Source: an uncultured Nitrospiraceae bacterium (GTDB lineage: Bacteria; Nitrospirota; Thermodesulfovibrionia; Thermodesulfovibrionales; SM23-35). From it: DNA of 63,037 nucleotides. The stretch's first letter is position 1, and every line of letters starts with the position of its first letter. The stretch is taken from the NCBI GenBank assembly GCA_937138415.1, contig CAKZPA010000009.1, positions 1 through 63,037 on the forward strand, in the 5' to 3' direction. A model generated the notes under the pieces. The model ran no database searches and was not told the DNA's origin. It saw nothing but the letters and a program-made list of their open reading frames with translations. Shown one piece after another: positions 46,928-63,037 of this stretch. Position numbers and translations under genes: made by a program.

Positions 46928-47875
46928 CTACTTGCCCCAGTCCGAGCGGACTTTCGTCCTCTTGTAGAGGTATCGTTCCGCCGATAAGGCCGCGATGCAT
47001 CCCTGTGCCGCCGCAACCACCACCTGTCGGATCTCCGTGCACGTAACGTCTCCCGCGGCGAATACCCCCGGAATGGATGTCTCCATCATCGCATTCACGG
47101 GAATGCAGCCGTCCTCGCCCGTCTCGATCGCTCCGTAGAGAAAGTCGACGACCGGTTTGTTCCCGTGGAGGTAGACGAAGACGCCTGCTACGGGGAGTTC
47201 GGACTCGCGGTCGTCGGCGTCGCGCATCCTGATCTTTTCCACGAGATCCGTGCCTTCGACGGCTATGACCTTATGTCCGAGGAGTACTTTCACGTTCGGC
47301 AACTGCAGGACGGGGTGATCCTCCGTGTGTACCTTTCGCGACGGAGAGATGAGATAGACGGTCGCTGCGTACCGCGAGAGGACGCCGGCTTCTTTCACGG
47401 CTTCTTCCGAGCTTCCGATGACGCAGACGGTCATGCCGCGGTAGAAAGCCGCGTCGCAGGTCGCGCAGTAGCTGACGCCCCTCCCGAGGAATTCGCCTTC
47501 GCCCGCGATGCTCGGCCTTCTGCCCATGGAGCCGGTCGCGATGATCATCGTCTTTCCGCTGTACGACCTGTCCATGGCGATCGCCTCTTTTATCTCCTCG
47601 GCGAGCTGTACTCCGACGATCTGCGTCTCGACATACTCGGCTCCGAAACCGATCGCCTGCCTTCTCATGAGATCGAGGAGTTCCTTGCCAGGCATTGGTT
47701 GCATGAGCCCTGGGTAGTTTTCGATCTTGCTCGAGTAGGCGAGGGCGCCGGCCGTCGGCGATTTGTCGAGGATGACGGTTTTCAGTTTTCCTCTCGCCGC
47801 GTACTGGCCGGCGGCGAGCCCTGCGGGACCGCCTCCGATGATGATCACGTCGTAAAGCTCTGCCTGTTCCTCCAT
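46928..47875 (-). CDS. trxB: Thioredoxin reductase-like FAD/NAD(P) oxidoreductase
   Basis: 315-residue flavoprotein. FAD site 'DVIIIGGGPAGLAAGQYAARG' (starting at residue 9), redox pair C137-AT-C140 in 'SYCATCDAAFYRG', and the C-terminal FAD motif 'GVFAAGDVT'. The second nucleotide motif is 'VIGSSEEAVKEAGVLSRYA', in place of the usual GGGxSA, which may mean altered NAD(P)H use, as seen in some TrxB-like enzymes. AGGAGGT precedes the ATG. Confidence 0.85.
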   Translation of the reverse strand: MEEQAELYDVIIIGGGPAGLAAGQYAARGKLKTVILDKSPTAGALAYSSKIENYPGLMQPMPGKELLDLMRRQAIGFGAEYVETQIVGVQLAEEIKEAIAMDRSYSGKTMIIATGSMGRRPSIAGEGEFLGRGVSYCATCDAAFYRGMTVCVIGSSEEAVKEAGVLSRYAATVYLISPSRKVHTEDHPVLQLPNVKVLLGHKVIAVEGTDLVEKIRMRDADDRESELPVAGVFVYLHGNKPVVDFLYGAIETGEDGCIPVNAMMETSIPGVFAAGDVTCTEIRQVVVAAAQGCIAALSAERYLYKRTKVRSDWGK

Positions 47876-47912
47876 CGAAACCTCCTGTAGAGAGAGATAT
47901 CTAAAGTTTACA

Positions 47913-48140
47913 TTATTCGCCTTTCGGATCGCTCAGACGGGAGTCGAGAGAAAGGCAAGAATGCAACGTATCCCCGTCCGCCTCACTAGTTAGCCTCGCT
48001 TCCTGACATACGAAATCAGCAATGAAGGAACCAACCGGCTCTTGCCTCCTGAATTTGTAGGTCTCCACGTGTCTCGCTCTGCGGTGTCCCCACAGTAACC
48101 TCTCGGCGTCCGTCGGGTCCTTTCGGAGCGCTGTGCACAA
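47913..48140 (-). pseudogene. DUF559 (Vsr-like) nuclease remnant
   Basis: The frame encodes 'LRKDPTDAERLLWGHRRARHVET'-like sequence, then 'YKFRRQEPVGSFIADFVC', which is the conserved N-terminal half of DUF559 endonucleases. The catalytic strand is decayed: where the family has 'LVVELDGGxH' this has 'LTSEADGDTLH', and the chain then ends. The start is a TTG and the upstream family N-terminus is missing. A CCCTCA-type terminus follows at 48170. A 9-base direct repeat (CAAGAATGC, 47956-47964 and 48138-48146) flanks it. Confidence 0.7.
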
Positions 48141-48169
48141 GAATGCTTGTGGGAATCATTCATTGCACA

Positions 48170-48418
48170 CCCTCACCCTCCCCTCTCCCCTCAAGGGAGA
48201 GGGGACAATCAAGGATGCATCGTCCATCACGTCTTTCCTTAAAGGAGCGGCAACCGAAGATGTATATTCCATCGCTTCTCTCTTCAAGGAACGGCGTTCC
48301 ACGAAAAAGATGCGATAAGGATGGACACCCCCTATCGCCCTTCCCTCAAGGGCGAGGGGACAACCAAAATGGCTATTCCATCGACTCTGCCCACAAAGGA
48401 GAGGGTTCGGATAAACCT
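48170..48418. repeat. Degenerate tandem hairpin repeats beginning with a CCCTCA terminus
   Basis: About five imperfect units of 35-55 bases, each with a small hairpin around a C(A)AAGG centre (for example CTCCCCTCAAGGGAG at 48184) and several ending in a variant of ATTCCATCG or GTCCATCA. Approximate unit starts: 48179, 48232, 48276, 48331, 48384. The first unit is joined to ACCCTCACCCTCC, the same kind of terminus that bounds the DUF559 insertion in hsdS. Confidence 0.55.
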
Positions 48419-48444
48419 TTTTTGTTCATTGATGCCATCGGAGG

Positions 48445-48585
48445 TTGACAGGACATGCTATTTGAGCGGATTTGTTTTGCCGATATTCAGGCACAATGTC
48501 TTTAGTGATAAAGAGGCAAAAAATCCATCGGAGGGCCCGATGCGGATCGGGACCGAGAATGAACGAAAAGAGCATGTCCTGTCAA
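48445..48585. mobile_element. MITE-like element with 15-bp perfect terminal inverted repeats
   Basis: TTGACAGGACATGCT (48445-48459) and AGCATGTCCTGTCAA (48571-48585) are exact inverted copies, 141 bases end to end, with no coding capacity between. CCATCGGAGG occurs just outside the left end (48435-48444) and again inside (48525-48534). The size and structure are those of a non-autonomous transposon. No matching transposase is in the window. Confidence 0.6.
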
Positions 48586-48730
48586 GGGACTCGACGTCTA
48601 TAAAAAAGCGCGTTAAAAAGATCTATATTCTATTGCCTCTCCATCCATGGAGATGGTCTTCTGCTTTCCGTGCAGGAGTCGGAAGGAGCGCATCGTAGAC
48701 AAAGATTGGACTGTTCGACTCGTAGAGGGC

Positions 48731-48768
48731 GGGGCCTGACGCCGTTTTTAATTCATGGGTCAGGCCCC
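48731..48768. repeat. GGGGCCTGAC/GTCAGGCCCC hairpin after katG
   Basis: A perfect 10-bp inverted repeat with an 18-base loop, 17 bases past the katG stop. The GGGTCAGGCCCC motif recalls REP sequences associated with RAYT transposases. It could also end katG transcription, although no T run follows on the minus strand. Confidence 0.5.
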
Positions 48769-48785
48769 GGATATTCCTACACAGA

Positions 48786-51347
<2,562 letters not shown>

Positions 51348-61000: not shown

Positions 61001-61223
61001 GGAGTTTTCGATAGGCATCCTCCAAAGCCTCTGGAGGCAATGATTGATTCAACCGGAGAAGTGCATCGCGTAAACGCTGCTCCAAAACAACCTGGCTGTA
61101 GTCACTACGTTCGGCAAACAGAGTCTCCGGAGCAATTTCCGGGCCATGCTTGATTGCCCAGCCGATAGCCTCAAGCCATGAAAGAGCAGCATCTTCAACC
61201 AAGGATTCGGTCAGACAAACCAT
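58068..61223 (-). CDS. hsdR: Type I restriction enzyme R subunit
   Basis: 1051-residue motor and nuclease subunit. The N-terminal nuclease carries '[22 protein letters not shown]' (PD-(D/E)xK: D and ExK visible). The translocase has Walker A '[11 protein letters not shown]', DEAH box '[14 protein letters not shown]' and '[10 protein letters not shown]' and '[21 protein letters not shown]'-like motifs, then a helical C-terminus. It looks complete. Its start lies inside the end of the RAYT gene. Base composition looks more AT-rich than the core genes, consistent with transfer. Confidence 0.95.
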
Positions 61224-61810
61224 GCGTCCTCCGGTTCGGGTGCGGTTACCGCCGGGTTTTCCCGGTCGAATGCCCAGCGGGCAGGGTTGTCGAGGATGTA
61301 TTGACGGATGCGGTTCAGAGATTCGTCATTGCGAATGATGTGTTCGTAATAATTACGTTGCCAAAAACGCCCGGGGAACGGCGGCCAGCCTGATTTTTTG
61401 ACGCCACGCGTATATGCAACGGTAACCCGCGATTTGAATGCGCCGACCACATCCCCAACCGTAAGGGCAACCCTTGTGGTTGCCCTATTTTCGGGGGTTA
61501 TACCATTATGGGCAGGCACAAGGCCTGCCCCTACCGGTGTGGGTTCGGTGACGACGATGCCGTGAACGTGATTCGGCATGACGATGAATGCGTCGGTGCC
61601 TACACCAGGATAAAACGCCGGCAATTGATCCCAGACCGATTGGACCATCAACCCCGCCTCGTTCATCCGCATTTTCCCATCCGCCACCTCACCGAACAGA
61701 CAGGTGCGATCTTGCGTGCAAATCGTGACGAAATACGCGCTGGGCTGGGTGTAATCGTAGCCCTTCAGGCGAATGGAACGGCGGTGGTGGCGTTCAGGGT
61801 CGTAGGTCAC
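61211..61810 (-). CDS. REP-associated tyrosine transposase (RAYT)
   Basis: 199-residue Y1 single-strand transposase of the IS200/RAYT group. The metal HUH motif is '[10 protein letters not shown]', the nucleophile Tyr is in '[12 protein letters not shown]', and the N-terminal '[18 protein letters not shown]' is typical. It starts with GTG overlapping the hsdS stop (GTGA) and runs 13 bases into hsdR, so it is fixed inside the restriction operon. A stretch at about residues 92-116 is two palindromic repeats translated in frame. Confidence 0.9.
61462..61535. repeat. Two palindromic repeats embedded in the RAYT gene
   Basis: agggcaac/gttgccct (61464-61471, 61479-61486) and gggcaggc/gcctgccc (61510-61517, 61523-61530). 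They belong to the common 'GTAGGGGCAGGC...GCCTGCCC' and 'AGGGCAACC...GGTTGCCCT' interspersed hairpins. In the transposase frame they encode '[10 protein letters not shown]' and '[10 protein letters not shown]' within the linker between the HUH and Tyr motifs. Confidence 0.7.
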
Positions 61811-63037
61811 AGGCCGCGCTCCTTGAGGAATTTCTCCGCGTCCCTCACCCGTATCTCGCCCGAGATGAGCTTGGGCAGCAGCGCGTCGCGCAGGGAGGCG
61901 AGGGTGCGGGATTCTTCCTCAATACAGTCGATGCGTCCATACGCACTGCCAGCAAATCGGCTGAAATGAACCAATACTTGGCGTATTGGAACAATCATAC
62001 GGTGAGACTTCAGGTCTGTCTGAGTTAGAAGTGGCTGAGTAGAACCTCTGTTGAGTGAGTCGTAGTCAATGAAACGTAGTTGGAAAAAGAGGTATTCAAA
62101 CGCAAAAGGCTGTTTCGAGCGAACAATTAGTGTGTTATCCGAGGGCCAACATGGTGTAGGGATTCTGAACACAGAACCAAGTGTTCCTACCCTCCCCGTA
62201 AGCAGAATAGGCTTTTTGGTGAGCGGTTCGTGAACGTAACCCATGGGTCCGTTGCCGCCCCAGAGAGGAATTGGTGCCTCGCGGGACCATTCGGTGAACC
62301 TTACTTGGGGCCGCTTGCCACTTGTTATCTCGGCCAGCTCACCAAGTGTACCCACCTCCCACCCCTCCGGGATCTCGCCGAGTTCGGAGTCAACGAGCCG
62401 GGCGGGGAACAAGTGATCGAAAGCGCAGCTTTCGATCACACCCTCACCCCCAACTCCTCTCCCAGGGGGAGAGGGGGGTAGTGCGTCGACGATGCGGGTA
62501 AGTACGGACTGCGGGTCTTCGAAAAGCTCCTCATTCGTAAAACGCAGGACTCTGAATCCTTGTGATTCCAACCAAGCATCCCGTTTGTGGTCTCTCTTTC
62601 GCCTTTCGGCATGAACGCCACCGTCCAGTTCCACAACCAGCCGATGTTCATGGCAGTAAAAATCTACAACATAGTCCGCAATTTGGTGCTGGCGCCGAAA
62701 CTTCAGCTGCATGAAGCGCCGATCACGAACAAGCTCCCAAAAAAGTTCTTCTGCAGACATTTGTTTGCGGCGCAGTTCTCGGACCGTTTTCACCAACCCT
62801 GCAAAGTCATACCATCCCCGATAATTTGGCCGCCCTTTCTCCCCTTGGGAGAAGGGGACGGGGGATGAGGGTTGATTTCGAGCCCGGGCGGCGTTGCGAC
62901 GCACAGGCTCGAAATCAATGAACCATGATTTGAACAAGGCGCGGGCCATGGCCTCGAGCGTCTCGCTCATGCGCCGGTTCAGCTCGATCTTGTCGTCCAG
63001 CGTGCCGAGGATGTGGGCGATGGCGCGTTGTTCGGAG
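61807..63037 (-). CDS. hsdS: Type I restriction S subunit with an in-frame DUF559 nuclease insertion, 5' end outside
   Basis: The frame is open to the right edge ('SEQRAIAHILGTLDDKIELNRRM'-like conserved helix reading in from the end), so the first target-recognition domain lies outside. After 'ALFKSWFIDFEPVRRN' the normal HsdS sequence breaks off. About 155 residues follow that contain a DUF559 domain. HsdS then resumes with 'FDHLFPARLVDSELGEIPEGW' and a second recognition domain ('ITSGKRPQVRFTEW...'), ending 'LISGEIRVRDAEKFL'. The insertion is in the central spacer, and no stop codon interrupts the frame, so both DNA specificity and nuclease parts could be made as one chain. The stop overlaps the RAYT start. 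Confidence 0.88.
   Translation of the reverse strand, partial: SEQRAIAHILGTLDDKIELNRRMSETLEAMARALFKSWFIDFEPVRRNAARARNQPSSPVPFSQGEKGRPNYRGWYDFAGLVKTVRELRRKQMSAEELFWELVRDRRFMQLKFRRQHQIADYVVDFYCHEHRLVVELDGGVHAERRKRDHKRDAWLESQGFRVLRFTNEELFEDPQSVLTRIVDALPPSPPGRGVGGEGVIESCAFDHLFPARLVDSELGEIPEGWEVGTLGELAEITSGKRPQVRFTEWSREAPIPLWGGNGPMGYVHEPLTKKPILLTGRVGTLGSVFRIPTPCWPSDNTLIVRSKQPFAFEYLFFQLRFIDYDSLNRGSTQPLLTQTDLKSHRMIVPIRQVLVHFSRFAGSAYGRIDCIEEESRTLASLRDALLPKLISGEIRVRDAEKFLKERGL
62413..62918 (-). mobile_element. DUF559 element inserted in hsdS with inverted host duplications at both ends
   Basis: Core 62441-62871: termini CCCTCA(T/C)CCCC at both ends in inverted orientation, each followed by a G-rich hairpin (CTCCCAA/GGGAG types). 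The nuclease (62482-62793) keeps its PD-(D/E)xK residues: D103 in 'YVVDFYC', E114-L-D116 in 'VVELDGGVH' and H120 (numbering from the Met at 62970). At one end the host sequence TTGATTTCGAGCC (62872-62884, inverted copy 62906-62918) brackets 21 bases. At the other GTGATCGAAAGC (62413-62424, inverted copy 62428-62439) brackets three bases. Confidence 0.75.

Follow-up and report, generated by a model that had tools for sequence, protein, structure and literature searches.

Anatomy of the locus

Within the 63,037 nucleotides from an uncultured Nitrospiraceae bacterium that were analyzed here (referred to as the window), genes for a pyridine-nucleotide-disulphide oxidoreductase and a katG-like peroxidase enclose an intergenic gap that contains the remains of a DUF559 gene on the minus strand, together with a leader, a short tag and a hairpin (Table 1). 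That a DUF559 remnant lies here, as a sequence-only reading had claimed, is borne out by the open frame and by its match to PF04480 (E-value 9.8e-17, profile positions 8-62 of 109), which reaches 61.2 bits compared to a curated cut-off of 20.6 bits. The element is also decayed, as had been proposed: the domain is truncated and the frame is broken after the start, where MNDSHKHS can be read from the ATG at 48163-48161 before the frame is lost and the domain follows one frame off. The gene lacks its 3' half, and its 3' hairpin is gone as well. As the 3' half is lost and a frameshift lies behind the start, the gene in the window is dead; instead of a complete domain in an intact frame there is a pseudogene of the family. 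Among intact relatives the nearest one that was found, the gene at locus L025, starts with MNDLHRHFMAKALRK.

The leader is joined directly to CCCTCACCCTCC at 48170-48181, and these letters are present as they had been read. The hairpin resembles the BoxC/PIT/TM repeats in its succession of C-stem, loop, G-stem, short loop and a second G-stem (GGGTGAGGG). For the TM motif the consensus CCCTCNCCC N3-6 GGGNGAGGG N3 GGGNGAGGG was published (Holder et al. 2015, PMC4666352). All blocks of this motif occur in the window copy and the second loop has 2 nt compared to 3 nt in the consensus; the hairpin is a near-match, TM-type rather than strict TM. The fold calculations covered the duplex form of the hairpin. 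An Rfam scan of window positions 47800-48800 returned sub-threshold matches only, which we took as chance.

Between the element and katG we observed a 19-nt inverted repeat, TTGACAGGACATGCTATTT (95%), with arms at 48445-48463 and 48567-48585 that lie 103 nt apart and may mark the two termini of some other small element. A perfect, terminator-like 11-bp inverted repeat (CGGGGCCTGAC / GTCAGGCCCCG, 48730-48769) lies a short way downstream of the katG-like gene, which is on the minus strand.

Table 1. Features of the decayed DUF559 copy (window positions).
Feature	Position	Strand	Basis
DUF559 (Vsr-like, PD-(D/E)XK type) domain remnant, first 57 domain codons	47967..48137	-	Pfam PF04480; 62.5% identical to the L025 gene
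Open frame with the remnant; last ~18 codons non-DUF559	47913..48140	-	
TGTGCA in N-terminal codons; not conserved, chance match	48132..48137		C54 comparison and 178-terminus test
Former start, ATG (complement of 48161-48163), with the N-terminal codons MNDSHKH...	48138..48163	-	
Leader between GGGTGAGGG tag and ATG (TGCACA)	48164..48169	-	same letters in C54, similar ones in C44 and C1
GGGTGAGGG tag, oriented towards the gene	48170..48178	-	same placement in relatives
BoxC/PIT/TM-type hairpin CCCTCTCCC-TTGAG-GGGAGAGGG-GA-GGGTGAGGG	48170..48203	-	
Additional hairpin repeats of this cassette, degraded (CTTCCCTCAAGGGCGAGGGGACAACCAA..., CTGCCCACAAAGGAGAGGG...)	48340..48414		direct repeat family D1; C54 comparison

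Copies in the same genome

The genome (2.11 Mb in 57 contigs) has four DUF559 places, namely hsdS (62479-62790 of the window), C36, the window copy and C54. Only those in hsdS and C36 are intact genes, and they share 44% identity with the L025 gene compared to 61% for the remnant. At an unrelated site, C54 carries a paralogue with 86% identity to window positions 48025-48251. The two copies have AGAATGCTTGTGGGAATCATTCATTGCACACCCTCACCCTCCCCTCTCCCCTC, including the TGCACA leader, in common letter for letter. In C44 the leader recurs as TTCAT..CACACCCTCACCC, and shorter versions of it are kept in C44 and C1 (TTCAT..ACACCCTCA).

The C54 copy is decayed in its own way, with the 5' and 3' hairpins both kept and the interior deleted, and it has a single one of the cassettes beside its hairpin compared to the additional, degraded ones in the window. 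C44 and C1 have the hairpin and the start region only. We read the window copy with its remaining 5' end, C54 and C44/C1 as further stages of the decay seen at single sites in related genomes (see below). A viral scan with the 57-aa remnant as query gave no relatives. The repeat family is present at several places in the genome, between genes here and with related units inside genes (hsdS), which agrees with the sequence-only reading; its wording that the family is active in this genome is unsupported, as the copies of this clade (C9 and C54) are decayed and the intact hsdS and C36 genes are more distant.

Inverted flanks at the CCCTCA terminus

It had further been suggested that insertion copies the host flank in inverted form at the CCCTCA terminus, leading to a host arm, a loop and an inverted copy (TGTGCA ... 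TGCACA) in the same arrangement as in hsdS. Both 6-mers exist and their pairing is possible in a single-strand fold, and inverted arms of 12 bp (100%) and 22 nt (86%) with 3-nt loops are found at the two ends of the hsdS element, which lies in the same window. TGTGCA is indeed found where it was read, but it is not specifically inverted: positions 48132-48139 form TGTGCACA, a sequence identical to its reverse complement, and TGTGCA is thus equally a direct and an inverted copy of TGCACA. As TGCACA recurs in C54 elsewhere, it belongs to the DUF559 gene as its leader and is not host DNA, and at the position of the other arm C54 reads TTTTTGCAACAG, without TGTGCA. The proposed anatomy is thereby refuted for the window copy. 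Orientation differs as well, as CCCTCA faces outward to the host in hsdS and faces the gene here, the latter being also usual in most free-standing DUF559 genes.

The inverted flanks were then scored at 178 non-redundant termini of CCCTCA[CT]CC hairpins from the genome, its order and viral contigs, using the best perfect inverted copy that ends at most 4 nt from the terminus, with shuffled flanks and random positions of the same loci as controls. Copies of at least 6 bp occurred at 13 termini; the shuffled flanks gave 6.0 and the random real positions 9.6. The claim of inverted flanks above chance thus did not hold; 6-bp inverted flanks are about at chance level, and by the yardstick that the sequence-only reading had itself set, the idea of a shared mechanism fails for the window copy. 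Nothing clearly beyond chance was seen except hsdS, a case that does not carry over to the copy at 47913-48418. We consider an origin of the window arrangement by such flank copying highly improbable.

DUF559 domains inside genes

The hsdS frame (61807-63037, minus strand) stays open through the inserted DUF559 domain, giving an ORF of 387-409 aa, and the long inverted repeats at its junctions (62413-62439 and 62872-62918; 12 nt and 22 nt) include host codons. Directly behind hsdS lies a weak Y1_Tnp (RAYT-like) gene (61211-61810, minus strand). Its Pfam score of 20.3 falls short of the cut-off (23), and it contains a palindrome, GGGCAGGCACAAGGCCTGCCC, near position 61514. At L005 / L011 (C35) a TM hairpin element of ~54 bp is located inside an hsdM-like gene at about 1501-1555, apparently in frame and just before a PGFCKSA motif; a Methylomonas locus (L310) has a DUF559 unit in hsdM at what looks like the place of this element. 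In two related genomes (L049 and L050) DUF559 domains lie in frame inside apparent type III methylase (Mod) genes, with CACCTCACCCC ... GGGGTGAGGT ends in L050.

Association of DUF559 genes with hairpins

BoxC/PIT/TM repeats were recognised in E. coli in the 1990s. Holder et al. counted 23 TM copies in E. coli K-12, reported genome instability around the motif and a stable triplex formed by the single strand in vitro, and noted that no gene for mobility had ever been found close by (PMC4666352). We chose DUF559 loci regardless of repeats, and defined a hairpin as a pyrimidine-only arm of at least 7 residues plus its purine complement.

In the order to which the genome belongs, 83 of 94 DUF559 loci have a hairpin within 200 bp (55 of them on both sides), and beside the other 11 none was detected in the 200 bp searched. 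Within 100 bp there are 7.4 hairpins per kb, compared to about 0.15 per kb beyond 400 bp. Across many phyla (82 loci from named genomes) the picture is similar, with a hairpin within 200 bp in 74 and on both sides in 55 loci, and densities of 8.34 and 0.148 per kb. Near-strict TM motifs follow the same trend (0.45 compared to 0.019 per kb in the order and 1.59 compared to 0.038 across phyla), and the tag points towards the gene in 54 out of 69. The units are built in mirror symmetry, running from hairpin and G-rich tag through ATG, DUF559 and stop to C-rich tag and hairpin. As a control, Y1_Tnp loci of the same order have a hairpin within 500 bp in 3 out of 30 cases compared to 84 out of 94 for DUF559. 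A Y1/RAYT protein as mobiliser was rejected, since the Y1_Tnp genes of the order lack these hairpins.

The hairpin type differs between branches of DUF559 (CTCTCC, CTCCC, CTCTTA, CCTTT, CTCCTW, CCCTTA). A DUF559 tree with 166 rows requires 30 changes of the upstream class, compared to 68 with shuffled labels (minimum 61), and 31 of the downstream class, compared to 75. Upstream and downstream classes agree in 74 of 103 cases, with 22.7 expected. The tree is of a quick kind and orthologous loci were not removed from it, so part of this clade signal is shared descent of whole units. The units of Legionella anisa and L. shakespearei (L307 and L322) have flanking hairpins whose loops are long and nested and recur on one side or on both.

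On the level of genomes, 37 have both the TM hairpin and a strong DUF559 match, 26 the hairpin only, 25 DUF559 only and 88 neither (Fisher p 2.7e-6, relatedness ignored). The 26 out of 63 TM-bearing genomes that are without a strong DUF559 match may have lost the gene or may use something else.

That the hairpin immediately precedes the start codon and follows the stop could also be taken as a hint that it regulates or terminates the DUF559 gene, with the unit being a cassette moved by other means. We regard this as unlikely: many hairpin copies occur without a gene, Holder et al. report neither promoter nor terminator activity for the motif (PMC4666352), and the hairpin type agrees between the two sides and tracks the protein tree.

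Gain and decay at single sites

Three related genomes differ at one site, where G166 has the whole unit, G165 the 3' end of the gene with the 3' hairpin, and G167 nothing. In the gidB-gyrA gap (gene names inferred from flanking sequence) a larger DUF559-hairpin module is present in G165 and G166 and missing in G161-G164 and G167.

In E. coli K-12 the DUF559 gene ycjD (1351407-1351760) lies 168 bp from TMECO no. 9, for which Holder et al. give 1351205-1351239 (table in PMC4666352). The ycjD site alternates with the eef operon and is not a clean empty site; the sapF-fabI interval was rejected as such, because strains without ycjD carry this operon there.

YcjD was placed among the PD-(D/E)XK nucleases, with Vsr as a profile relative, by 2005 (PMC1189080). 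The DUF559 family profile matches the structure 3hrl with an E-value of 2e-35 and, weakly, the homing endonuclease I-Bth0305I; structure matches of a predicted DUF559 model (pLDDT 88) list 3hrl and I-Bth0305I first and Vsr further down. DUF559 segments are among the recombination hotspots in a study of Legionella evolution (PMC12308824). VsrA of Caulobacter, a DUF559 protein, has been linked to DNA damage and mismatch repair, and it causes a DNA-damage response in cells that lack a cytosine methylase (PMC12907096).

The relationship of DUF559 to Vsr and I-Bth0305I in fold and sequence, together with the VsrA result, would fit a nuclease for repair or defence that collects at unstable repeats prone to triplex formation, with mobility not involved. 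Packaging in mirror symmetry with clade-specific hairpins, and gain and decay at single sites among close relatives, have the look of mobile units, and we hold a pure repair or defence role to be improbable.

Comparison with known systems

The hairpins share with the BoxC/PIT/TM repeats their many copies, mostly intergenic and across phyla. As published, these repeats are without a mobility gene (PMC4666352), whereas here a cognate DUF559 gene lies between them. A literature search for DUF559 with repeats or transposition, excluding subscription papers and preprints, returned no paper on the association. YcjD and NGO0050 (PDB 3hrl) belong to the same family, and in the papers found they are not tied to repeats; ycjD adjoins a TMECO copy.

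The likeness to REP/RAYT (PMC2817692, PMC8266576) consists of a single small nuclease gene, inverted flanking palindromes, many palindromes without a gene, and a palindrome type that tracks the protein clade. Palindromes inverted around the nuclease gene and matched to its clade are found in the DUF559 family, the window copy keeping the 5' side only. The enzyme differs: RAYT is of the HuH/Y1 type and DUF559 is PD-(D/E)XK/Vsr-like, and the gene beside the palindromes here is DUF559 instead of a Y1 HuH gene (PF01797).

EDxHD homing endonucleases, which cut a defined allele, reside in introns or next to inteins. DUF559 has the fold of these Vsr-like enzymes (I-Bth0305I, PDB 3r3p), a remote sequence similarity to them and a small nuclease gene of selfish type; in contrast to them its gene is bounded by repeats and occurs at many unrelated sites.

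Proposed mechanism and meaning

We propose that a DUF559-plus-hairpin unit, a minus-strand gene with its own tag and hairpin, has left its 5' remnant at this locus, and that such a unit would work in the manner of REP/RAYT by means of a Vsr-like nuclease; we put the probability of this reading at about 0.72. Anatomy, decay, the C54 paralogue, the packaging between hairpins, the match of hairpin to protein clade and the series at single sites are observed, and the mobilising role of the protein is inferred from them. The ranking of the mechanisms by likelihood is the authors' own judgement. In mechanistic terms the DUF559 protein would bind and nick the hairpins of its own clade, nicking would spread the unit, and hairpins alone could be moved in trans as RAYT serves REP. 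After decay of the gene the hairpins would remain as scattered BoxC repeats. We lean slightly towards this view of the protein as the enzyme that spreads both the unit and, in trans, lone hairpins.

A broader proposal is that DUF559 represents a second, unrelated class of repeat-mobilising nucleases with clade-specific, triplex-capable hairpins, and that the bacterial BoxC/PIT/TM repeats, those of E. coli included, are its gene-less offspring and relics; we judge the odds of this to be even. The nuclease is a candidate for the spreader of the old BoxC repeats, as hairpins flank the genes of the family in about nine of ten cases over many bacterial phyla. With ycjD present in E. coli K-12, the origin of the BoxC/PIT/TM repeats becomes answerable in laboratory strains. 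If the proposal is true, a large family of uncharacterised proteins would have a function, and the REP/RAYT arrangement would have arisen more than once, with different enzymes.
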